Below are positions 1,920-30,700 of a stretch of 39,369 nt of DNA, piece by piece (within the stretch, counting starts at the first letter, position 1; each line of letters begins with the position of its first letter). A program made the position numbers and the translations under genes. Source of the stretch: Actinomycetota bacterium (GTDB lineage: Bacteria > Actinomycetota > UBA4738 > HRBIN12); assembly GCA_005885035.1 (NCBI GenBank), contig VAXZ01000118.1, positions 1 to 39,369 of the forward strand, given 5' to 3'. The notes beneath the pieces were generated by a model that did not search any database, was not told where the DNA came from, and worked only from the letters and a program-made list of their open reading frames with translations.

Positions 1920-2648
1920 ATGGAGCGGACGGTGCCGGGCGGACCGATGGAGTCGGTCGCCGACGCCGTCCGCGTGCTCGTGGTGGACGACGAACCCGCG
2001 ATCGCCGACCTGGTGGGCACCGCGCTGCGGTACGAGGGGTTCGACGTCGCGACCGCCGGGAGCGGTCGCGACGTCCTCACGATGGTCGAGTCCTTCCGGC
2101 CCGACCTGATCGTCTTGGACATCATGCTGCCGGACCTCGACGGCTTCGAGGTGCAGCGTCGGCTCTCGGACCGCGGCCGGCGGATCCCGGTGCTCTTCCT
2201 CACGGCCCGTGACGCGACCGAGGACAAGGTGCGCGGGCTGACGATCGGCGGTGACGACTACGTCACCAAGCCGTTCAGCCTCGAGGAGTTGATCGCCCGG
2301 ATCCGCGCGGTGTTGCGGCGCGCCGGTCACGGCGAGGACGCGGCCGGGCGGTTGCGGTTCGAGGACCTGGAGATGGACGAGGACTCGCATGAGGTCTGGC
2401 GCGCGGGAGGACCGGTGGAGCTCACCCCGACCGAGTTCAACCTCCTCCGGTTCATGCTCGTCAACCCGCGGCGCGTGCTCTCGAAGGAACAGATCCTCGA
2501 CCATGTCTGGCACTACGACTTCGGCGGCGACCCGTCGATCGTCGAGACGTACATCAGCTACCTGCGCAAGAAGGTGGATGGGACCGAGCCGCACCTGATC
2601 CACACGGTGCGCGGGGTCGGCTACGCGCTCCGGTTGCCCAAGGAGTGA
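1920..2648 (+). CDS. OmpR/PhoB-family response regulator
   Basis: The product has 242 residues: a receiver domain (about 18–135) followed by a winged-helix DNA-binding domain (about 145–240). The receiver shows the acidic pair Asp23/Asp24, the phospho-acceptor Asp67 in VLDIMLPD, the conserved Thr in LFLTAR and Lys117 in YVTKPF. The output domain has ELTPTEFNLLRFML, SKEQILDHVW, VETYISYLRKK and the terminal HTVRGVGYALR typical of OmpR-type regulators. ATG 1920 is preferred over GTG 1911 because GAGGAGG (1905–1911) then sits eight bases upstream. The gene overlaps or abuts the kinase start (2651), so the two are translated together and act as a cognate pair. The stimulus and targets cannot be told from sequence. 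Confidence 0.93.
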   Translation: MERTVPGGPMESVADAVRVLVVDDEPAIADLVGTALRYEGFDVATAGSGRDVLTMVESFRPDLIVLDIMLPDLDGFEVQRRLSDRGRRIPVLFLTARDATEDKVRGLTIGGDDYVTKPFSLEELIARIRAVLRRAGHGEDAAGRLRFEDLEMDEDSHEVWRAGGPVELTPTEFNLLRFMLVNPRRVLSKEQILDHVWHYDFGGDPSIVETYISYLRKKVDGTEPHLIHTVRGVGYALRLPKE

Positions 2649-2650
2649 GG

Positions 2651-4150
2651 ATGTCCCTGCGGGCACGGCTGTTGATCGTGACGGTCGTGCTCGTCGCATC
2701 CGGCCTCTTGGTGGCGAACCTCGCGACCTATCACTACCTGTCTGGGTTCTTGCTGCGGCGGGTTGATCAGCAGTTGGCGACAGCGGTGCCCGACGCCGCG
2801 GTCGCGTTCGCGCCACCGTTAGGCGCAGGTGACCATCCACCCGGCCTCCCAGGAGTGGCGTACGGCACGTACATCGCCGTGCTCGACGGGTCCGGAAGGA
2901 CGGTTCTCCACCGCTTCCTGGGGCCAGCAGGTTCCCCACCCAACCTGCCCGCCCAACTTCCGATGTGGTCTCCAGGGGATTCGGCTCCTATCACCGTCCG
3001 GTCACTTGACGGTTCCACGCGATATCGGGTACTCGCCAACGACGTGCAGTTCACGCAGAACGGGCAGCCCGCGACCGGAACGATCGTTGTCGCGATCCCG
3101 CTTACGGAGCTCCACGTGACGCTCCGGCATCTGATGGGGGTCGAGTTCCTCGTGAGTGCGATCGTGCTCCTCATCGTCGCCGGGCTCGCCTTGTGGCTCG
3201 TCCGCATCGGGCTACAACCGCTCGAGGGGATGGGCACGACCGCGGATGCGATCGCCGCCGGCGATCTCACGCGGCGGGTGGAGCCCGCCGACGATCGCAC
3301 CGAGGTCGGGCGGCTCGGGATCGCCCTCAACACGATGCTCGCGCGTATCGAGGCGGCTTTCGAGCAACGGCGTCGCTCCGAGGAACGTCTCCGCCGGTTC
3401 GTCGCTGACGCATCGCACGAGCTGCGGACGCCGCTGACGTCGATCCGCGGGTACGCGGAGCTGTTCCGCAGGGGTGCCGACACCCGGCCCGAGGATCTGG
3501 CGAAGTCCATGTCCAACATCGAGTCCGAGGCGTCGCGCATGGGCGTGCTCGTCGACGACCTGCTGCTGCTCGCCCGGTTGGATCAGGGCCGGCCGCTCGA
3601 ACGCGAGCCGCTCGACCTCGCCGCGGTCGCATCGTACGCCGTCGAGAGCGCGCGGGCGATCGAGCCGGATCGAACGATCGAGCTGGTCGCTGACGATCCG
3701 GTCCGGATCGTCGGTGACGCCTCGCGTCTGCGCCAGGTGATCGACAACCTGCTCGACAACGCGCGCGTCCACGCGCCCGGCTCGCCGGTACGAGTCGAGG
3801 TTTCGCTCGATGATGAGGAGGCCCTGCTGCGGATCGGGGACCGGGGACCGGGACTGGATCCAGAGGTCGAGGGACGGATCTTCGAACGGTTCATGCGCGG
3901 CGACCCTTCGCGCTCGCGTGGGACGGGCGGCGTAGGCCTCGGATTGTCGATCGTCCAAGCGATCGTGGCCGCGCACGGTGGGGAAGTCACGGCGTCTTCA
4001 CATGACGAGGGCGGCACGGTCTTCGAGGTTCGGCTACCCGTGGGTGGTCCTCCCGATGCTCCGACCCGCCCGGATCAGCCGGAAACGAGGAACGAAGAAC
4101 CAGGATTCGGCACCGCGGAAGTGGCTCCGACGGGAGGAGCGGCCGGGTAG
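2651..4150 (+). CDS. Membrane sensor histidine kinase
   Basis: The product has 499 residues: an N-terminal membrane helix (about 6–30), an extracytoplasmic sensor region of ~130 residues, a second helix (about 166–186), a HAMP linker (RIGLQPLEGMGTTADAIAAG), a HisKA dimerisation domain with the phospho-acceptor His near residue 256 in DASHELRTPLTSIRGYAEL, and an ATP-binding domain. The ATPase part shows the N box (VIDNLLDNARVHA), the G1 box GDRGPGLD, the F box IFERFMRGD and the G2 box GTGGVGLGLSIVQAI. ATG 2651 is chosen over GTG 2645 because AGGAG (2641–2645) lies just upstream. It follows its response regulator directly. The sensor region has no recognised ligand-binding motif. The last ~30 residues are low-complexity and past the domain end. 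Confidence 0.93.
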   Translation: MSLRARLLIVTVVLVASGLLVANLATYHYLSGFLLRRVDQQLATAVPDAAVAFAPPLGAGDHPPGLPGVAYGTYIAVLDGSGRTVLHRFLGPAGSPPNLPAQLPMWSPGDSAPITVRSLDGSTRYRVLANDVQFTQNGQPATGTIVVAIPLTELHVTLRHLMGVEFLVSAIVLLIVAGLALWLVRIGLQPLEGMGTTADAIAAGDLTRRVEPADDRTEVGRLGIALNTMLARIEAAFEQRRRSEERLRRFVADASHELRTPLTSIRGYAELFRRGADTRPEDLAKSMSNIESEASRMGVLVDDLLLLARLDQGRPLEREPLDLAAVASYAVESARAIEPDRTIELVADDPVRIVGDASRLRQVIDNLLDNARVHAPGSPVRVEVSLDDEEALLRIGDRGPGLDPEVEGRIFERFMRGDPSRSRGTGGVGLGLSIVQAIVAAHGGEVTASSHDEGGTVFEVRLPVGGPPDAPTRPDQPETRNEEPGFGTAEVAPTGGAAG

Positions 4151-4228
4151 GCGGAGCGTGGTGTCGGCGCGCCGCAGCTTTCCCGTTCGAAACGTGAGCA
4201 CCGTCACATCCTTAGCGAGGCGAGGGCG

Positions 4229-4260
4229 GCACCCCATCGAACACATGTTCGATGGGGTGC
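4229..4260. promoter_or_regulatory. LexA (SOS) box inside a 32-base palindrome
   Basis: Positions 4237–4252 read TCGAACACATGTTCGA, a perfect match to the actinobacterial LexA operator TCGAAC-N4-GTTCGA. It lies at the centre of a longer near-perfect palindrome with 15-base arms (4229–4243 and 4246–4260) around two unpaired bases. The first possible start codon of the HNH gene, GTG 4265, is only four bases after the palindrome. SOS boxes in front of DUF222/13E12-type HNH genes are known in mycobacteria. The extended arms could also form an RNA hairpin ending the kinase transcript, but no T-run follows. Confidence 0.8.
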
Positions 4261-4264
4261 GTTT

Positions 4265-5455
4265 GTGAGCGAGCTCAGATCGGTCGTCGAAGCGTTCCGA
4301 TGTGAGGCGATGTCCGAGCTTCCGGACGCTGGTTTGGAACAAGACTTTGCGGAGCTTCAACGCGCCGTCGAGCTGCTCGAGGCGGAACGACTCCGGCGGT
4401 TGGCCGAGATCGACCGTCGTGGACTCCACGAGCGGGACGGATTCCTCTCGGCGGCTTCGTGGCTGGCCTCATCGCACAAGGTCGCTTGGGGGAACGCCAG
4501 AGCAGATCTGCGCATCGCTCGAGCGCTCCGAGATATGCCACGGTCGCTCAGCGCGCTCCTGGAAGGAGAGGTCTCGATGTCGGCCGTCAAGGTGCTGGCG
4601 GCCGCTCGCCAGACCGACCCGCTGACGTTCGACCACTCCGAGCCGCAGCTTCTGGAGGCGGCCAGGGTTCACGCGATCGGCGACCTGCAGCGCGTGGTCG
4701 GCTTCTGGCGTCAGCAGGTCGATCACGCTCACGACCTACGGGGTGATGACGCGGCACGTGCGCGGCGACGACTGCATGCATCCGCAACGTACCTGGGGAT
4801 GGTCCGTGTCGACGGTGACCTCGACCCGGAGACCGGCGAAGCGCTTCTGACCGCTCTCGGCGCGGTTCTCGATGCCGAGACACGATCGAACATCGGCGAG
4901 GACGGTCTCACGCCGGCGCAGCGGCGCGCAGACGCGCTGGGCGAGATCTGCCGGCTGTGGCTCGACCGCTCGGACAGGCCGATGGTCGGGGGCGAACGAC
5001 CTCACGTCACCCTCACGGTCGACGCCGGGATGCTGGCAGGCCGCGAGGCAGGCACCGCGGAGCTCGACCGGACGGGCCCCGTCCCGGAGGAGCTCGAGAA
5101 GCAGCACCTGTGCGACGCCTCGGTGATGCGCGTCGTGCTTTCAGGTCGTTCGCAACCGATGGACGTCGGCCGGCGGACGCCGATCGTCCCTCCCGCGATG
5201 CGACGAGCCGTGATCGTGCGCGATCGTCGCTGCCGGTTCCCGGGCTGCGACCGGCCGCACAGCTGGTGCGATGCGCATCACATCGTGCATCGGGCCGACG
5301 GCGGACCGACCGCCATCGGGAACCTCCTCTTGCTGTGCCGTCGGCATCATCGGATGGTGCATGCCCCCGGCGGGTTCAGTTTGGAGCTGCTCGACAGCCG
5401 CCCGGCGTTCAAGCGACCCGATGGATCGCTGTTGGAGGACCGAGTGCCGCCGTGA
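4265..5455 (+). CDS. DUF222 domain protein with C-terminal HNH motif
   Basis: The product has 396 residues. The N-terminal ~280 residues are the helical DUF222 region typical of the actinobacterial 13E12 repeat family (for example AEIDRRGLHERDGFLSAASW, VLAAARQTDPLTF, DLDPETGEALLTALGAVL). The C-terminal part has an HNH nuclease fold: RDRRCRFPGCDRP supplies a Cys pair, HHIVHRADGG the HH of the motif, NLLLLCRRHHRMVH the Asn and final His. The activity is probably DNA cleavage, but cellular roles of this family are poorly defined; mobile-intron-like behaviour and SOS-linked DNA processing have both been suggested. GTG 4265 starts right after the LexA palindrome and lacks a clear ribosome site; ATG 4310 is an alternative that would leave room for a leader. 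The gene is convergent with the ABC genes at 5480. Confidence 0.9.
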   Translation: MSELRSVVEAFRCEAMSELPDAGLEQDFAELQRAVELLEAERLRRLAEIDRRGLHERDGFLSAASWLASSHKVAWGNARADLRIARALRDMPRSLSALLEGEVSMSAVKVLAAARQTDPLTFDHSEPQLLEAARVHAIGDLQRVVGFWRQQVDHAHDLRGDDAARARRRLHASATYLGMVRVDGDLDPETGEALLTALGAVLDAETRSNIGEDGLTPAQRRADALGEICRLWLDRSDRPMVGGERPHVTLTVDAGMLAGREAGTAELDRTGPVPEELEKQHLCDASVMRVVLSGRSQPMDVGRRTPIVPPAMRRAVIVRDRRCRFPGCDRPHSWCDAHHIVHRADGGPTAIGNLLLLCRRHHRMVHAPGGFSLELLDSRPAFKRPDGSLLEDRVPP

Positions 5456-7687: not shown

Positions 7688-10159
7688 TCAGCCGTCGCCG
7701 GCTCGGACCGACTCGATCGAGTGCACGGGCGAGGGCATCCTGCTGTCGGGGCCCCGCATCGCCTTCCACAGGATCCGGTTCATCAGTCGCATCGGGATCA
7801 GGTCCGGGTCGGAGAAGTCGATCCGCAGCGACGCCGTGGCCATCGGGGTCCCGAAGGTGTTCTTGGCGAAGAGGGACACGCCGGGGACGACGGCCGTGTA
7901 CGGACGGAGGTTCGCGGTGCTGGAGAACGCCGCCGACATCGGGGTGGCGACCGCGTCGAACTGGCTCATCGGCGGAACGCCCAGGACCAGTTCCATGGTC
8001 CGCAGCACCGAGACCGACGAGTAGAAGGTGGAGTCGATAGCGCCCGTCTGGGTGTAGGGGCTGATCACTAACGCGGTCGACCGATGGGCGTCGACGTGAT
8101 CGGGCCCGTCCTGCGCGTCGTCCTCGACCGAGAAGATCGCGGTCGAGCCCCAGAAGGAGGAGTGCGACACGGCTTCGACCAGCCGGCCGAGCGCGAGATC
8201 GTTGTCGGCGACCATCGCATCGGGCCGCCGCGCCCGAGGGGTCGTGCCCGCGGTGTGGTCGCTCGGGAGATAGACGAACTGCATCGTCGGCATCGAACCG
8301 CGCGCCTGATACCCCTGGAACACGTGGAGCCAGCGGTCGATGCGCACCTGATCCGGCACCATGAGATCCCACCCCGGATATTGCGGGTCGGTGTGCCCGA
8401 GGAGCCCTGGGATCGAGGGCTGGAGGTCGACGGGGTTGTCGACGAAGAAGCCGAAGTTCCGGTACGGGACGCCCGCTGCAGCCAGCTGGTCCCAGAGGAA
8501 CCCCCGCCCCGGGTGCTCGCCGGGAAGGCCGGCCGTGGTCCCCTCGCCGAAGCCGCCGAAGTCGTACGGCCTGCCGTAGCCGTTGTAGTCGACCGGCCAG
8601 TTCCGCTGGATGTACCCGTTCGCGTACGCGCCCGTGGTCCAGCTCCATCCGTCGGCCGAGACCTCCGCGTCGGCGTAGAAGTTGTCGAAGGTCACGAAGC
8701 GGCGCGCGAGCGCATGCTGGTTCGGCGTCACGTCCTGCCCGAAGATGGCGAGCGACGGGTCACCGTTGCCCTTCCCGAGGTCGCCCAGGATCTGATCGTA
8801 GGTCCTGTTCTCCTTCATCACGTAGATCACGTGGGTGATCGGTGTGGCGTCGCCGGGCGCCGAAGGGATCACGCTGCCGCTGGGAACGGTGGGGGGCGCG
8901 CCGAACCGATCGTTCGCCGAGACCTGGGCCGTGTAGGCGGCGAGCTGGGCCGCATCGGGGACCGGGATCGTCGAGAGGGTCCCGTGCATGAACGCCGGCC
9001 AGTAGGTCGTGGGATCGAGGTGCGGACCGGCGCCGAGTCCCTTCATGTTGATCGCGAACAGCGTCCGTCCGGACGGGGCGACCGCGACGCCGCTCGGGTA
9101 CCAGGCCGTGGGGATCAGGCCGGCGACATGGTCCGGCATCGCTGCGCTCCCCAGTTCGACGACCGCGACGTCGTCGTCGCCGCCCATCGCGACGTACAGG
9201 GTCGTGCCGTCCGGGCTCACCGTGAGTCCGTCCGGCATCGCGCCGACCGGCGCAGCTGGGTACGGTCTCAGGTCGATCGTTCGAAGGACCGATCCGGTCG
9301 TGCCGTCCAGAACGGTGACGCTGTCGCCGTCGCCGTTCGCGACGTAGAGCTCGTTGCCGACCGGGTTCGCGACGATCGAGCAGGGGTGCATGCCCACCCC
9401 GACGGTTCTCACGACGGAGTCGGTGCTCGTGTCGATCACGCTGACGCTGCTCGCGCCCCAGTTGGTCACGAAGGCGCGGGTGCCGGCGGCGTTGAGCGCC
9501 ACCCCGTACGGCAGGTGGCCGACCGCGACGGTTGCGAGGACGGAACGCGAGGCGGGGTCGACGACGCGGAGGGTGTCGTCGAGGTTCCCCGCGACGTAGA
9601 GCCGGTTTCCGTTATCGCCGACCGCGATCCCGGCCGGCCATGCGTGGTCGTTGCCCCGGTTGCCGGTGAGCTTGATGTGCTGCGTCTCCGTGAGCGTCCG
9701 GCCGGTGATCCGGAACGCGTGGATCGCGCCGCCGGGTCCGTCGGACGCCCACGCGTGGCGCCCGTCCTGCGCGAAGGCGAGTCCCACGTAATACCCGGTC
9801 GGATGACCGCTCGCCCAATCCCACCATCCGTGGGACTTGGCTCCGGCGGCCGAGATCACTTGGAGGACTGCGCCCGTCGCGGGGTCGACCGCCGCCAGCG
9901 AGTGATGCGCGTAGCCCGCGTTCGCGACAAGCAGCAGGTTCCCGGTGGGGCTGATCGCGACGTCCATCGGCCACAACCCGAGGTTCGTCTGAGCGCCGGC
10001 CGGGGTCACGCGCCAGCCCTGGGGCGTGATGGCGGTTCCGTCGGGCTGGGGGCCCGCGGTGGGCGGCGTGGCTGCCGCCGCCATCGCAGCGACGGCCACG
10101 GAGAGCACCACCGCCGCGGCGACGGCCCGGAACGACCTGAGCCCCGATCCCCGACCCAC
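7688..10159 (-). CDS. Secreted YncE-type beta-propeller/phosphoesterase
   Basis: The product has 823 residues and three parts: a signal peptide (about 1–32, ending AAMAAAATPP), an N-terminal seven-bladed-type beta-propeller (about 60–400) with repeated YVTN-like units (RLYVAGNLDDTLRVVDPASR, RAFVTNWGASSVSVIDTSTD, ELYVANGDGDSVTVLDGTTG, TLYVAMGGDDDVAVVELGS), and a C-terminal phosphoesterase of the phospholipase C/AcpA group (about 465–770). The latter shows HVIYVMKENRTYDQILGDLG, the metal-site region near FDNFYADAEVSADGWSW, FSVEDDAQDGPDHVDAHR and ALVISPYTQTG. It is probably an extracellular or cell-wall phosphomono- or diesterase. GTG 10159 is used because GAGGAGG (complement within 10167–10174) is seven bases upstream, although the frame is open to 10240. 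It is transcribed toward the ABC permease, with a 102-base gap. Confidence 0.9.
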   Translation of the reverse strand: MGRGSGLRSFRAVAAAVVLSVAVAAMAAAATPPTAGPQPDGTAITPQGWRVTPAGAQTNLGLWPMDVAISPTGNLLLVANAGYAHHSLAAVDPATGAVLQVISAAGAKSHGWWDWASGHPTGYYVGLAFAQDGRHAWASDGPGGAIHAFRITGRTLTETQHIKLTGNRGNDHAWPAGIAVGDNGNRLYVAGNLDDTLRVVDPASRSVLATVAVGHLPYGVALNAAGTRAFVTNWGASSVSVIDTSTDSVVRTVGVGMHPCSIVANPVGNELYVANGDGDSVTVLDGTTGSVLRTIDLRPYPAAPVGAMPDGLTVSPDGTTLYVAMGGDDDVAVVELGSAAMPDHVAGLIPTAWYPSGVAVAPSGRTLFAINMKGLGAGPHLDPTTYWPAFMHGTLSTIPVPDAAQLAAYTAQVSANDRFGAPPTVPSGSVIPSAPGDATPITHVIYVMKENRTYDQILGDLGKGNGDPSLAIFGQDVTPNQHALARRFVTFDNFYADAEVSADGWSWTTGAYANGYIQRNWPVDYNGYGRPYDFGGFGEGTTAGLPGEHPGRGFLWDQLAAAGVPYRNFGFFVDNPVDLQPSIPGLLGHTDPQYPGWDLMVPDQVRIDRWLHVFQGYQARGSMPTMQFVYLPSDHTAGTTPRARRPDAMVADNDLALGRLVEAVSHSSFWGSTAIFSVEDDAQDGPDHVDAHRSTALVISPYTQTGAIDSTFYSSVSVLRTMELVLGVPPMSQFDAVATPMSAAFSSTANLRPYTAVVPGVSLFAKNTFGTPMATASLRIDFSDPDLIPMRLMNRILWKAMRGPDSRMPSPVHSIESVRAGDG

Positions 10160-12665: not shown

Positions 12666-13961
12666 TCATCCTCCCGTGACGGAGATCCGAGCGCGCGCCA
12701 GGATGCGGACGATCGCGTCCTCGTACGGCTCGGCCTCACCCGACCCGTACGTGGACGTGAGGATCGAGAACGCGACGCTCGTACCGGCGGCGGTTCGGAC
12801 GTACCCCGAGAGCGCCGACGCCGGCCGGACGAAGAGCGTCCCGCTCTTCGCGCGGAGCCGGATCCCGGCGAGCCGATCCGAGAGCGTGCCCTGGCCGGGA
12901 GTGGGGAGGGACCGGACGAACGCTCGACCCCATGACGCCCGCCGCGCGTCGAGCAGCAGGGTGACGATGCCGAGCGGGCTCGTCCGATCCTGATCGGACA
13001 AGCCCGACCCGTCCCGGACGCTCGCCCGCACGTGCCATCCGCGCGTCCACGCGCGGATGGCACGCGCCCCCGCCGCGGTGGAGCCAGTCCCCTCGACGCG
13101 CACGCCGAGCGCCTTCGTCAGCATCTCGGCGATGAAGTTGACCGAGTCGTGGTTCTGGGTGCGCAGGAGCGACGCGAGCGGTGCCGAGCGGATCCGGGCC
13201 AGTGGGCGCAGGTGGTCGGGGGCGCGCCCAGCGACCGCGCCGCCGCCCACTCTGACCCCGAGTGCGACGAGCGTGGTCCGCAGCGTCGAGGCGGCGCGCC
13301 GCTCGGGTGAGCCGGGGTCGCGGTTGCCGTCGATCGCGAGCGCGGTCGGGCGGGTGACGTAGCTTCGCGAGATCCCCGGGAGCCAGCCCGGCGCCCACCA
13401 GCCCCGATCGAACGCGGAGGTGTCGCCCACGATCGAGCCCGTGATCCGCCTGATCCCGAGCGCATGGAGCCGCGCGGCCAGCGTGGCCAGCCGTGCCGCG
13501 GTCAGTTCGGGATCACCTGCACCGATCAACCAGAGGTCGCCGCGGAGGAGGCCGCCGCGGACGCGTGCGTCCGCGGCGGCCACGGTCGGGAACCGGTGGC
13601 GCGGCCCGAACACGTCGAGCGTCGCCATCGACGTGAGGAGCTTCTCGTTCGACGCAAGGACGCGGGAGGCGCGTCCTCGATGGAGGTAGACGATCCGGTC
13701 GCCCAGCCCCACGGCGACCGCGACGTCCCGCCCCGCGACCACGTGGTCGATCGCGGCAGTCCACGGCGCGTCGACGGGTCGGAGCCGCGCCCTGGGAGTT
13801 CCCGGTGGGACCGCCGTTGCGGGTGTCGACGATGCGATCGTCGATGGCGGTGCCGCGGTGGGATATCCGGAGGGCGGGCCGGACGGGGGGATGCGTGAGG
13901 CGGCCGTGCAGGCCACGAGCACCAGGGCGGCGCTGCCTCGCCACGCACGGATACGGCGCAT
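12666..13961 (-). CDS. dacB: PBP4-family D-Ala-D-Ala carboxypeptidase lipoprotein
   Basis: The product has 431 residues and looks like a peptidase family S13 enzyme (DacB/PBP4), which trims or cleaves peptidoglycan cross-links outside the membrane. The N-terminus has a lipobox-like LVAC with Cys18, then a Pro/Ser/Thr-rich linker to about residue 60. Catalytic motifs are all present: S104-NE-K107 in VLASNEKLLTS (SxxK), SVN in HDSVNFIAEML (SxN), and KSG in RAKSGTLF (the KTG box with Ser). Other family marks are LWLIGAGDPELT, GSIVGDTSAFDRG, and RDGSGLSDQDRTSP. Frame remains open upstream to 14351 but that part overlaps the divergent membrane gene and is not protein-like. The KSG variant also occurs in other carboxypeptidases. 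Confidence 0.88.
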   Translation of the reverse strand: MRRIRAWRGSAALVLVACTAASRIPPSGPPSGYPTAAPPSTIASSTPATAVPPGTPRARLRPVDAPWTAAIDHVVAGRDVAVAVGLGDRIVYLHRGRASRVLASNEKLLTSMATLDVFGPRHRFPTVAAADARVRGGLLRGDLWLIGAGDPELTAARLATLAARLHALGIRRITGSIVGDTSAFDRGWWAPGWLPGISRSYVTRPTALAIDGNRDPGSPERRAASTLRTTLVALGVRVGGGAVAGRAPDHLRPLARIRSAPLASLLRTQNHDSVNFIAEMLTKALGVRVEGTGSTAAGARAIRAWTRGWHVRASVRDGSGLSDQDRTSPLGIVTLLLDARRASWGRAFVRSLPTPGQGTLSDRLAGIRLRAKSGTLFVRPASALSGYVRTAAGTSVAFSILTSTYGSGEAEPYEDAIVRILARARISVTGG

Positions 13962-22336: not shown

Positions 22337-23479
22337 ATGGCCGGGGATGGGTCTCGGGTTCGTGCGTGCGCGCTGCTCGTTGCGGTGACGCTGCTCGTCG
22401 GCATCGTGCCGGCGAGCGGCGCGTCCACCGACACGAAGCTGCACCGCGCCCGGGCGGACCTCGGCGATCTGGTGTCCCAGATCGCCGAGCAGGCGGCTGC
22501 CGTCGAGACGATCCGCGGCCGCGTGGCGGCCGCGGATCGCCGGATCGACGTCGCTGAGCGCGCACTCAGCCTCGTCCTCGCCTCGCGGCTGGCGGTCCGT
22601 GACGAGCTCGAGGCGGCCCAGGCGGCCTACGCCGTCGCTGAGTCACGGTTGCACGACACCGTGGTGGACACCTTCATGAACTCGCCGGGGGGGCTTGCCC
22701 AAGCCGACGTGCTGGGTGCCTTCCTGGAGGCGAGCTCGATGGCGGACCTCCAGGACCGGCTCGCGCTGGGCGACGCGATCGTCGCCGACCGCGAGCGAGC
22801 CGTTGGGGACCTCGCCGCGGCGAAGGCCAGGCTCGACGCGCGTGCGAGGGCGCTCGACGGGGCGCTCGCCGCGCAGCAGGCGACCGTCAAGGAGCTGCGG
22901 GCCGCCCAGGAGGAACAAGCGAACGCGCTCGCGAGCGAGCAGGCGGCGCTCGCACAGCTGAGCGAGACTCGCGATCGCATCGTGACGTTGATCGCGCGGC
23001 TCAAGAAGCGTCTGCACGCCGAGGACGTCGCCGCCGTCGCCCGGGCGTTCCAGGGTGCCGACCACGTTTCGTACGGCGATTGGGCGGACCTGCTGCTGCG
23101 CATCTTCGACGCCCCCACGTGCCGAGAGAACCGCGTCGTCGTGGTCGCCTGGCAGGTGCAGGAATTCACGCAGGCGGCCTGGAACCCGCTCGCGACCACA
23201 CACCGGATGCCGGGCTCGATGGACTTCAATGGGGCCGGGGTGCAGGACTTCGTCTCGTTAGCGCAGGGTCTCGAGGCGACCAAGGAGACGATCCAGAACG
23301 GATGGGACGTCTACGGGTACGGCGCGATCGTGACCTCCCTCCATCGGTGCGCCGACGCGTCGACGACCGCCTCGAGGATCGCGGCCTCCAGCTGGTGTTC
23401 CGGGTGCGTGAACGGCAACTACGTCGTCGGGGTCGTCCCGACGGTGGAGGCCGATCTGGCGACCTACTCCTCGCTCTGA
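22337..23479 (+). CDS. Secreted coiled-coil protein with lysozyme-like domain
   Basis: The product has 380 residues: a signal peptide (about 1–30, ALLVAVTLLVGIVPASGA), a long Ala/Glu/Arg-rich coiled coil (about 33–245) of the kind found in CwlO/RipC-type cell-wall hydrolases, and a C-terminal domain (about 255–380). The C-terminal part has the motif series VVVAWQVQEFTQAAWNPLA, MPGSMDFNGAGVQDF, SLAQGLEATKETIQNG and GAIVTSLH. That WNPL…FN..GV…GL.AT…NG series is seen in lysozyme-like domains attached to actinobacterial secreted and phage proteins. Four Cys residues (one in DAPTCRENR, one in SLHRCAD, a CSGC pair) may form disulfides. ATG 22337 gives the signal peptide directly. It probably acts on peptidoglycan, with the coiled coil as a regulatory arm. 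Confidence 0.75.
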   Translation: MAGDGSRVRACALLVAVTLLVGIVPASGASTDTKLHRARADLGDLVSQIAEQAAAVETIRGRVAAADRRIDVAERALSLVLASRLAVRDELEAAQAAYAVAESRLHDTVVDTFMNSPGGLAQADVLGAFLEASSMADLQDRLALGDAIVADRERAVGDLAAAKARLDARARALDGALAAQQATVKELRAAQEEQANALASEQAALAQLSETRDRIVTLIARLKKRLHAEDVAAVARAFQGADHVSYGDWADLLLRIFDAPTCRENRVVVVAWQVQEFTQAAWNPLATTHRMPGSMDFNGAGVQDFVSLAQGLEATKETIQNGWDVYGYGAIVTSLHRCADASTTASRIAASSWCSGCVNGNYVVGVVPTVEADLATYSSL

Positions 23480-24968: not shown

Positions 24969-25856
24969 TCAGCCGGTACCCGTGGTGGCCTGCGCGGCGA
25001 GGAGACGCTGGACGGGGCCTTTGAGACCGAGCTCGGTCGCGAGGTCCTTCAGTGCCGCCTCGTCCCGGTCGCCCGCCCACAGCGACAGCGGCGCGTCGGC
25101 GTTCACCGGGACGAGGCTGCGCATCGCGTCGAGGTACGAGCGGGCTTCCAGGAGGCGCGCGCGCACCCCCGGTTTGAGACGGAGGTCCCCCGCCGCCGCC
25201 GCTTCGAGCAACGCGTCGATCGACGGGTACGCGAGCACCAGGTCGCGTGCTGTCTTCGCGCCGACCCCTCGGACGCCGGGAAGGCCGTCCGAGGGGTCTC
25301 CGCGCAGGATCGCGAACTCCCCGTAACGGCTCGCCGGCACCTCGTACTTCGCCAGGACCCCCGCCTCGTCGAGCTCCAACAGCTCCGACACCCCGCGCAC
25401 GGTGAACAGGAGCTTCACGACGGGGTCGCGGACCAGCTGGATCAGATCTCGATCGCCGGAGACGATCTCGATCCGATCGTCCTCGCGAGCATCCAGGCAG
25501 AACGCGCCGATCGCGTCTTCGGCTTCCCACCCTTCGGTCTGCGCCTGGAGCATCCCCGTCGCGTCGAGCACCTGGCGGAGCAGGACGAACTGCTGCGGCA
25601 GATCCTCGGGGTCTGGCAGCCGGTTGCCCTTGTACGCGGGGTAGATGTCCGTTCGCGCCACCGGGCGCCAGTCGTGGTCGTAGACGTGGACGATCTCATC
25701 CGGCTTCCGGTCGACCATCAACTTCGTGACCATGTCGAGGTACCCGTGGACCGCGGCGATCGGTCGGCCGTCGGGCGTGAAGACGCCCGGTTCGCGGAGC
25801 GCGAAGAACGCTCGGTACATCATGCTCGAGACGTCGAGAAGTGCCCTCCGTACCAT
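24969..25856 (-). CDS. Stand-alone 5'-3' exonuclease/flap nuclease
   Basis: The product has 295 residues, matching the N-terminal 5' nuclease domain of DNA polymerase I without a polymerase. Metal-site Asp and Glu residues lie in LLDVSSMMYRAFFAL, YDHDWRPVARTDIYPAYKGNR, GWEAEDAIGAFC, SGDRDLIQLV and GDPSDGLPGVRGVGAKTARDL (the last carrying the helix-hairpin-helix and K+-site region). It would remove RNA primers or flaps. ATG 25856 comes three bases after the upstream stop, with TGAGG of that stop region as a weak ribosome site, so it is co-transcribed with the DUF1801 gene. Such proteins are common in actinobacteria as housekeeping enzymes; a link to the downstream McrB-like gene is only positional. 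Confidence 0.92.
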   Translation of the reverse strand: MVRRALLDVSSMMYRAFFALREPGVFTPDGRPIAAVHGYLDMVTKLMVDRKPDEIVHVYDHDWRPVARTDIYPAYKGNRLPDPEDLPQQFVLLRQVLDATGMLQAQTEGWEAEDAIGAFCLDAREDDRIEIVSGDRDLIQLVRDPVVKLLFTVRGVSELLELDEAGVLAKYEVPASRYGEFAILRGDPSDGLPGVRGVGAKTARDLVLAYPSIDALLEAAAAGDLRLKPGVRARLLEARSYLDAMRSLVPVNADAPLSLWAGDRDEAALKDLATELGLKGPVQRLLAAQATTGTG

Positions 25857-29977: not shown

Positions 29978-30700
29978 CTAGGACGTGAAGGCGCCGACGA
30001 TCGCCAAGGCTCCGGAGAGCCCGAGCAGGGTGAGCACGGCCACGCGGAACGCCCGGCCGTGCAGCCGGGTCGAGAGCCGCTTCCCGCCGAGCGTGCCCGC
30101 GACGATCGCGGGCACGCCGACGACGAACGCCACTCCCACGTCGCGCGTGAGCAGACCCCCGGCCCAGAACAGGAAGAGGGCGACCACGCCCTGAACGAAG
30201 AAGCATCCCGCGAGCGTCGCGCGGAACGCGTCCCGCTCCATCCCGGTCGCCTGGAAGGCGATCACGAGCGGCGGTCCGTTCGTCCCGGTGCTCGTGCCGA
30301 GCGCCCCCGAAGCGATCCCCGCAGCGATCTCGGTCCGCGGTCCGGGCGGGAGCTGCAGGCCGCGCCAGAGCCAGGCCGTCAGGCCGAGGACGACGATCCC
30401 GATCGCGAAGGTGAGGGCGGGATCGGGCGCCCGGGCCAGGATCAGCGCGCCGATCGGCATGCCGATCAACGACGCTCCGACGACCGTTGTCATCGCGCCC
30501 ACCCGCAGGTGCGCACGCCACCGGATCGTGTTCCACAAGGTCATCGGGACCCCGATCGCCGTTATCGCCACGACGGCGACCTTCGGATCGTCCGCGACCG
30601 CGATGATCGGGACCGCGACCAGGGCGAACCCGAAGCCCATCGTGGCCTGGATCGTCGCCGCGAAGGCCACCGTGGCGGCGATCACGACGATCAGCGCCAT
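29978..30700 (-). CDS. TauE/SafE-family membrane transporter
   Basis: The product has 240 residues, nearly all hydrophobic, with about seven or eight helices arranged as two similar halves, each starting with the family motif: ATIQATMGFGFALVAVPII in the first and ASGALGTSTGTNGPPLVIAF in the second. TauE/SafE proteins export sulfite, sulfoacetate or other small organic anions. ATG 30700 overlaps the stop of the upstream gene by one base (TGATG), so the two are co-translated. Its link with the sugar-acting genes upstream is not obvious. Confidence 0.9.
   Translation of the reverse strand: MALIVVIAATVAFAATIQATMGFGFALVAVPIIAVADDPKVAVVAITAIGVPMTLWNTIRWRAHLRVGAMTTVVGASLIGMPIGALILARAPDPALTFAIGIVVLGLTAWLWRGLQLPPGPRTEIAAGIASGALGTSTGTNGPPLVIAFQATGMERDAFRATLAGCFFVQGVVALFLFWAGGLLTRDVGVAFVVGVPAIVAGTLGGKRLSTRLHGRAFRVAVLTLLGLSGALAIVGAFTS

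Follow-up and report, generated by a model that had tools for sequence, protein, structure and literature searches.

The locus and its LexA box

The stretch of DNA analysed here (39,369 nt, referred to as the window) is part of a draft genome (G000; 2.5 Mb, 166 contigs, 86.8% complete) and contains response regulator and histidine kinase genes placed upstream of, and on the same strand as, a gene encoding a DUF222-HNH protein. The features of this region are the following:

2645..4150, + strand: upstream sensor histidine kinase gene (HAMP, HisKA, HATPase_c; Pfam)
4193..4208, + strand: CRP-like site CGTGAGCACCGTCACA, one mismatch to TGTGA-N6-TCACA (motif scan)
4229..4243, + strand: left arm of the perfect inverted repeat, GCACCCCATCGAACA
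4230..4235, + strand: slot that holds the -10 (TANNNT) in relatives; it reads CACCCC and lies within the left arm
4237..4252, + strand: LexA operator (SOS box) TCGAACACATGTTCGA (consensus match)
4246..4260, + strand: right arm of the perfect inverted repeat, TGTTCGATGGGGTGC
4254..4259, + strand: Shine-Dalgarno-like GGGGTG inside the right arm (assigned by eye)
4265..5455, + strand: DUF222-HNH protein, 396 aa, GTG start (homologues begin MSELRS)
5246..5362, + strand: HNH domain, residues 328-366 (Pfam)

The LexA box sits within a perfect 15-bp inverted repeat (4229-4260) with a 2-nt centre, so that beyond the 16-mer a further 8 bases are paired; the right arm is followed by four bases and then by the GTG at 4265. 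The initial annotation had described a perfect actinobacterial SOS operator and 15-base arms ending four bases before the first start codon, and both descriptions are exact.

In the 2.5-Mb draft genome, exact TCGAACNNNNGTTCGA (12 fixed bases) occurs at six places only, next to recA, dnaE/UDG, DUF402/DUF6504, uvrD and both DUF222 genes; the DnaE-type polymerase is divergent from UDG at one of these boxes, and DUF402 from DUF6504 at another. The start of RecA lies at a contig end, and its match (21.3 bits) fell below the cut-off as just 25 residues were matched, while lexA has two boxes upstream with 2 mismatches each. The UvrD-type helicase gene has its likely ATG inside its LexA box (L006:1501-1516). 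All six exact boxes adjoin SOS-type or DUF222 genes; the set is an SOS regulon, with both DUF222 genes as members by sequence. The box at the window gene has the TCGAAC-N4-GTTCGA form of an actinobacterial LexA/SOS operator near the start of an SOS gene, and the prediction that 4237-4252 is a genuine LexA operator putting the DUF222-HNH gene under SOS control is well supported.

A DUF222 match was present in 16/17 genomes of the same taxonomic family. The 44 match rows of this search were reduced to 29 genes with a readable N-terminus by dropping fragments, and to 28 since one gene had no upstream sequence; 25 of these 28 carried the box with up to 2 mismatches, a count that became 27/31 class-level genes after three were added. 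Gene G018:C223 is without a box (4 mismatches). Across the phylum DUF222 was present in 29/70 genomes, and 60 genes from 21 of those 29 genomes were scored: the box was found upstream of 29/60 at up to 1 mismatch and of 35/60 at up to 2 mismatches, leaving 25/60 without it, whereas the same 60 regions gave 0 and 0 matches to the reversed pattern and, far upstream, 1 and 6 matches at the two thresholds. Given 35/60 against 0/60 (reversed) and 6/60 (far upstream), the LexA box is, as judged from these sequences, a feature of the DUF222 family, although not a universal one. The initial annotation had named a lack of the box at homologues as grounds for dropping its reading; the homologues carry it in both samples, so that the reading passed this check, and DUF222/13E12-type genes are LexA targets in general. 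One genome of the family, G005, holds many DUF222 copies (18 match pieces in one search, 11 in another), several of them broken; their promoter regions are almost the same, which hints that the copies spread recently.

The core of the finding, an SOS box at a DUF222-HNH gene, is thus right and largely known in kind. LexA targets of M. tuberculosis are reported to include 13E12-family HNH genes, with the SOS motif TCGAAC(N)4GTTCGA (PMC4181829), and five HNH endonuclease genes are listed in its RecA-dependent mitomycin C response (PMC8151990). Our case resembles the 13E12/DUF222 part of that regulon, as these sources describe it, in having the same SOS motif and HNH genes as targets; it differs from it in belonging to an uncultivated actinobacterial class, in the CRP-like plus LexA layout described below and, for the window gene, in the long arms and the missing -10.

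Promoter architecture of the DUF222 genes

When the upstream regions of the DUF222 genes were aligned on the box, three layouts were seen (e.g. at L023, L027 and L034), all combined with the same LexA box: PafBC-like, CRP-like, and one with a TTGACA-type -35 touching the box. The PafBC-like element, TGTCNG-N10-TANNNT, stands directly before the LexA box in 10/30 class-level genes, whose motif resembles the PafBC/P1 damage promoter reported as tTGTCRgtg-8nt-TannnT (PMC5656591); it is absent from the upstream region of the window gene. Two or more WYL-domain genes were found in 17/17 family genomes, and CRP-type regulators in 16/17, the exception being G009, whose DUF222 promoter is PafBC-like.

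In the CRP-like layout a TANNNT follows the CRP-like 16-mer at exactly 21 nt in 12 of 15 genes other than the window gene (3/15 being without it), and this spacing holds whether the LexA box stands between the CRP-like site and the -10 or past the -10. Relative to the presumed start, the CRP-like site would occupy the class II position. The window gene retains the upstream site expected of a CRP-activated promoter (4193-4208, one mismatch), to which a CRP-type regulator may bind. The -10 at +21 is missing, since the slot, which falls within the left arm, has CACCCC, and no TANNNT was found on the + strand upstream of the gene (starts 4151-4275 scanned). Moreover, the CRP-like site and the box are 28 nt apart here and 26 nt apart in six genes (G017 among them), while the distance from box to start, 12 nt, is the same in G009, G010 and G017; for this reason the left flank is likelier to be the side that changed.

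With the -10 missing, strong damage induction of the window gene is doubtful, and from the sequence the palindrome probably damages the promoter that it surrounds. As a counterpoint, a weak -10 that departs from the consensus, for instance CATGTT within the box, might do instead. It could then be argued that this is an ordinary LexA operator with normal SOS induction from a -10 that consensus scans missed, the arms being due to chance or neutral; the box is indeed perfect and the gene intact, but a given box would extend by at least 8 further pairs by chance with a probability of only ~5e-5 (at the window's GC), and the position of the -10 is nearly fixed in relatives, so that we give this account little credence. 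Were a hairpin placed at random, the expectation of its centre coinciding with any of the six boxes would be ~0.001.

Our literature searches found no description of DUF222 genes with a CRP-like site combined with a LexA box, which does not prove its absence from print, and a literature search for DUF222 together with SOS gave no match.

Extended arms and perfect hairpins in the genus

The extension of 8 pairs sets the window box apart from all others compared: elsewhere in the genome, the five remaining exact boxes have 0, 0, 0, 0 and 2 extra pairs, class boxes 0-2 and phylum boxes 0-4. The whole 32-mer, with up to three mismatches allowed, was detected in 1/27 class genomes, the source genome itself, and its core had 0 matches in viral contigs. 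As far as sequence comparison goes, the extended arms thus lie outside LexA control.

The initial annotation had offered two RNA roles for the arms; a conserved RNA device is not supported. The predicted RNA fold of the box ±12 nt has -28.6 kcal/mol, compared to -5.0 to -16.1 kcal/mol for 24 other boxes (a range that includes a G017 value scored on the wrong stretch), and GGGGTG (4254-4259), the sole Shine-Dalgarno-like stretch noticed by eye, is in the 3' arm; it is thus possible that the hairpin hides the start in read-through RNA. The arms might then be a selected two-level switch, in which LexA acts on DNA, the RNA hairpin in kinase read-through hides GGGGTG and the GTG, and protein is made only from transcripts starting inside or after the palindrome. 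The Shine-Dalgarno-like stretch in the 3' arm and the strong fold agree with such a switch, as does a kinase gene on the same strand with no terminator-like site found after it. On the other hand, the arms occur in no homologue examined, we found no promoter that would start within the palindrome, and the arms agree with the excess of perfect, mostly intragenic hairpins seen throughout the genus (see below), all of which makes the switch unlikely.

Still less probable, and indeed very improbable, is that the palindrome serves chiefly as the terminator of kinase transcription, 79 nt past the kinase stop. Its place downstream of 4150 and its strong stem would suit that role, but the scan found no terminator-like site (a GC stem then a T-run) at the palindrome, since no T-run follows the stem, and congener G002 has deleted the stretch yet retains the kinase. 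There was no Rfam match near its threshold.

Including the palindrome at 4229-4260, the window contains eight perfect inverted repeats with arms of at least 12 bp, five of them with arms of at least 14 bp, whereas each of 20 Markov shuffles of the window gave 0-2 and 0 of them, respectively; palindromes of this length are therefore nothing out of the ordinary here. The other seven are:

2043..2075: perfect hairpin, 14-bp arms, within the response-regulator gene; congener G002 has identical arms
13031..13064: perfect hairpin, 16-bp arms, intragenic; 15/16 paired in G002
13550..13581: perfect hairpin, 15-bp arms, in the gene that also holds 13031..13064; perfect in G002
22460..22489: perfect hairpin, 13-bp arms, intragenic; perfect in G001 and G002
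22509..22539: perfect hairpin, 14-bp arms, in the gene that also holds 22460..22489; perfect in G001, 9/14 in G002
25263..25298: perfect hairpin, 13-bp arms, intragenic; perfect in G002, 10/13 in G001
30091..30117: perfect hairpin, 12-bp arms, intragenic; 9/12 in G002, 11/12 in G001

Extending the count to 422 kb of the genome, 66 perfect hairpins (arms at least 12 bp, loop up to 10 nt) were found compared to 1 in a second-order Markov control; shuffling codons inside genes left 8-10, eight of which are intergenic hairpins left unshuffled, so that the excess also exceeds a codon-aware expectation. By the gene borders of a crude custom gene finder, 58/66 are wholly intragenic, in DNA that is 91% coding. 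Loops have 2-4 nt in 48/66, arms in the genus measure 12-28 bp, and among the 58 the codon pairing phase is 36:14:8, that is, 36/58 pair in register.

Hairpins with arms of at least 13 bp numbered 12.3 per 100 kb in G000, 11.3 in G002 and 12.3 in G001 when all stretches were counted, some of which had been chosen because they carry orthologues of genes with hairpins; the stretches taken initially, without such selection, gave 7.9 in G002 and 6.5 in G001. The values were 9.6 in G003, 4.3 in G009, 3.6 in G010 and 0-3.3 in fourteen other genomes, from small samples of 32-120 kb each. Many hairpins are shared with two congeners: of those covered by alignments, 8/17 are perfect in G002 and 7/12 in G001, with changed loops and flanks; since three draft genomes share hairpins at the same places, assembly artefacts are unlikely as the main cause. 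An intragenic perfect hairpin with 28-bp arms (L204:3938-3996 / L313:9419-9477) has identical arms in G000 and G001 and compensatory changes relative to G002.

Perfect hairpins may instead be kept for a function (binding site, replication, packaging or RNA stability), the operator having been absorbed and regulation of the gene being secondary. Their presence at orthologous places in three draft genomes with some compensatory changes, their mostly 2-4-nt loops and their pairing phase all speak for this. However, picking perfect repeats alone halves the expected arm difference: from G000 to G002 arms diverged by 5.1% and flanks by 12.5%, with p 0.39 against half of the flanks, and from G002 to G000 by 2.9% and 12.3%, with p 0.004 against half, so that only the second comparison clearly beats the selection bias and the slow change of the arms largely follows from the choice. 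Compensatory pairs are few (for example, G000 and G002 differ by three such pairs, located in two hairpins, among four pairs changed on both sides), and no shared motif was found. We thus regard maintenance for a function as a rather improbable primary explanation. In more distant orthologues (~42-69% protein identity) pairing was no better, or just somewhat better, than in shifted controls, and in the hairpins compared, protein alignments run gap-free, with identity near that of the flanks.

Altogether, the extended arms at the LexA box belong to a genus-wide hairpin phenomenon and not to SOS control. A wider statement, which we make tentatively, is that perfect 12-28-bp hairpins arise and persist by the hundreds in this genus, mostly intragenic and some with compensatory changes between species, which would parallel, in bacteria, the coding palindromes found in mitochondria of nematomorphs. 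Short palindromes such as transcription-factor operators may act as seeds, and here a LexA operator would have become a hairpin erasing the promoter under its control. The mitochondrial palindromes are reported to have many perfect inverted repeats in protein genes, both arms coding, with arms up to 142 bp and template switching discussed as their source (PMC6649704); intragenic perfect repeats are common to both cases, the ones described here having 12-28-bp arms and occurring in a bacterial genus. Literature searches did not find a bacterial genus rich in coding hairpins, which again is no proof of absence from print.

Fate of the gene and origin of the palindrome

The product matches DUF222 (77.8 bits) followed by HNH (28.5 bits), both above the Pfam cut-off. 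In the alignment its HNH metal-binding residues are intact, with R343 replacing a near-invariant W; apart from this change the motif is whole, and the gene is thus not clearly dead. NCBIfam and PHROGs match the HNH part only, PADLOC gave weak matches only, to the same part, and a sequence search of solved structures returned IscB-type HNH (E 0.003-0.03). In the predicted fold (mean pLDDT 70.9, pTM 0.44) Foldseek found the HNH part weakly like McrA-type endonucleases (best E 0.066) and the helical N-part weakly like ParB/Noc DNA-binding domains (E 0.6 and up). A mycobacterial HNH nuclease, MSMEG_1275, is reported to kill its host when overproduced (PMC9416677).

The locus of congener G002 is syntenic, but window 4116-5403 is represented there by 22 bp, after which GACAGATCGCTATTGGAAGACCGGGCGCCGCCGTGA encodes DRSLLEDRAPP-stop, the C-terminal tail of the DUF222 family; this remnant locus lies downstream of the kinase, at L302:10897-10960. 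The conserved synteny and the leftover tail indicate that G002 lost the gene by deletion. Compared to its orthologues in G009 and G010, the window protein has more unique changes (50 vs 17 and 49 vs 21, respectively), faster change not being seen against paralogue C20 (42 vs 34) or L057 (34 vs 25). Paralogue C20, the second DUF222 gene of the genome (L022, G000:C20, near 7980-9050), has its conserved N-terminus in another frame and X residues in its 3' part, through either decay or an assembly fault. Taken together, the deletion in G002, the unique changes and the state of C20 fit a dispensable gene with eroding control.

The reading that we favour, with moderate confidence, is that a template-switch-type event, started from the dyad of the SOS operator, wrote over the -10 of the operator's own promoter. 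The ancestral layout would have had the CRP-like activator site first, the -10 21 nt further on and LexA over the -10/start region. In the window gene the palindrome would have grown outward from the operator, the 8 extra left pairs replacing the -10 and the spacing between CRP-like site and box shifting from 26 to 28 nt, perhaps by a template switch (quasipalindrome) that copied the right flank into the left with the operator dyad as seed; the event would be one instance of a genus-wide process or selection making perfect hairpins. As a consequence LexA should still bind, the gene's own promoter would be weak or lost and its expression presumably low, and any read-through kinase mRNA would hide the ribosome site in the hairpin.

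A single copying event would explain the arms, the spacing and the lost -10 together. The left spacing differs from that in relatives (28 vs 26), and the right one is kept (12). The ancestral -10 is deduced from paralogue C20 and more distant genes, because no close orthologue shares the window promoter, G009 and G010 (68-69% identity) having the PafBC-like layout. In E. coli, quasipalindrome mutation is reported to make imperfect inverted repeats perfect by copying one arm (PMC7202029; PMC8794818); unlike those cases, in which the events are observed, template switching is here suggested by comparison. Template switching alone also leaves without explanation the intragenic hairpins that keep the protein sequence.

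These results carry the link between DUF222-HNH genes and the SOS response into an uncultivated class of actinobacteria, and the CRP-like site with a fixed 21-nt spacing to the -10 and LexA on top suggests that such nuclease-like genes require another signal in addition to damage. The hairpin excess has a wider bearing: in genomes of this kind a long palindrome, taken singly, is not to be interpreted as a regulatory device, and there is a natural setting here in which to ask which of the two, template switching or selection, produces and maintains perfect hairpins in coding sequence.
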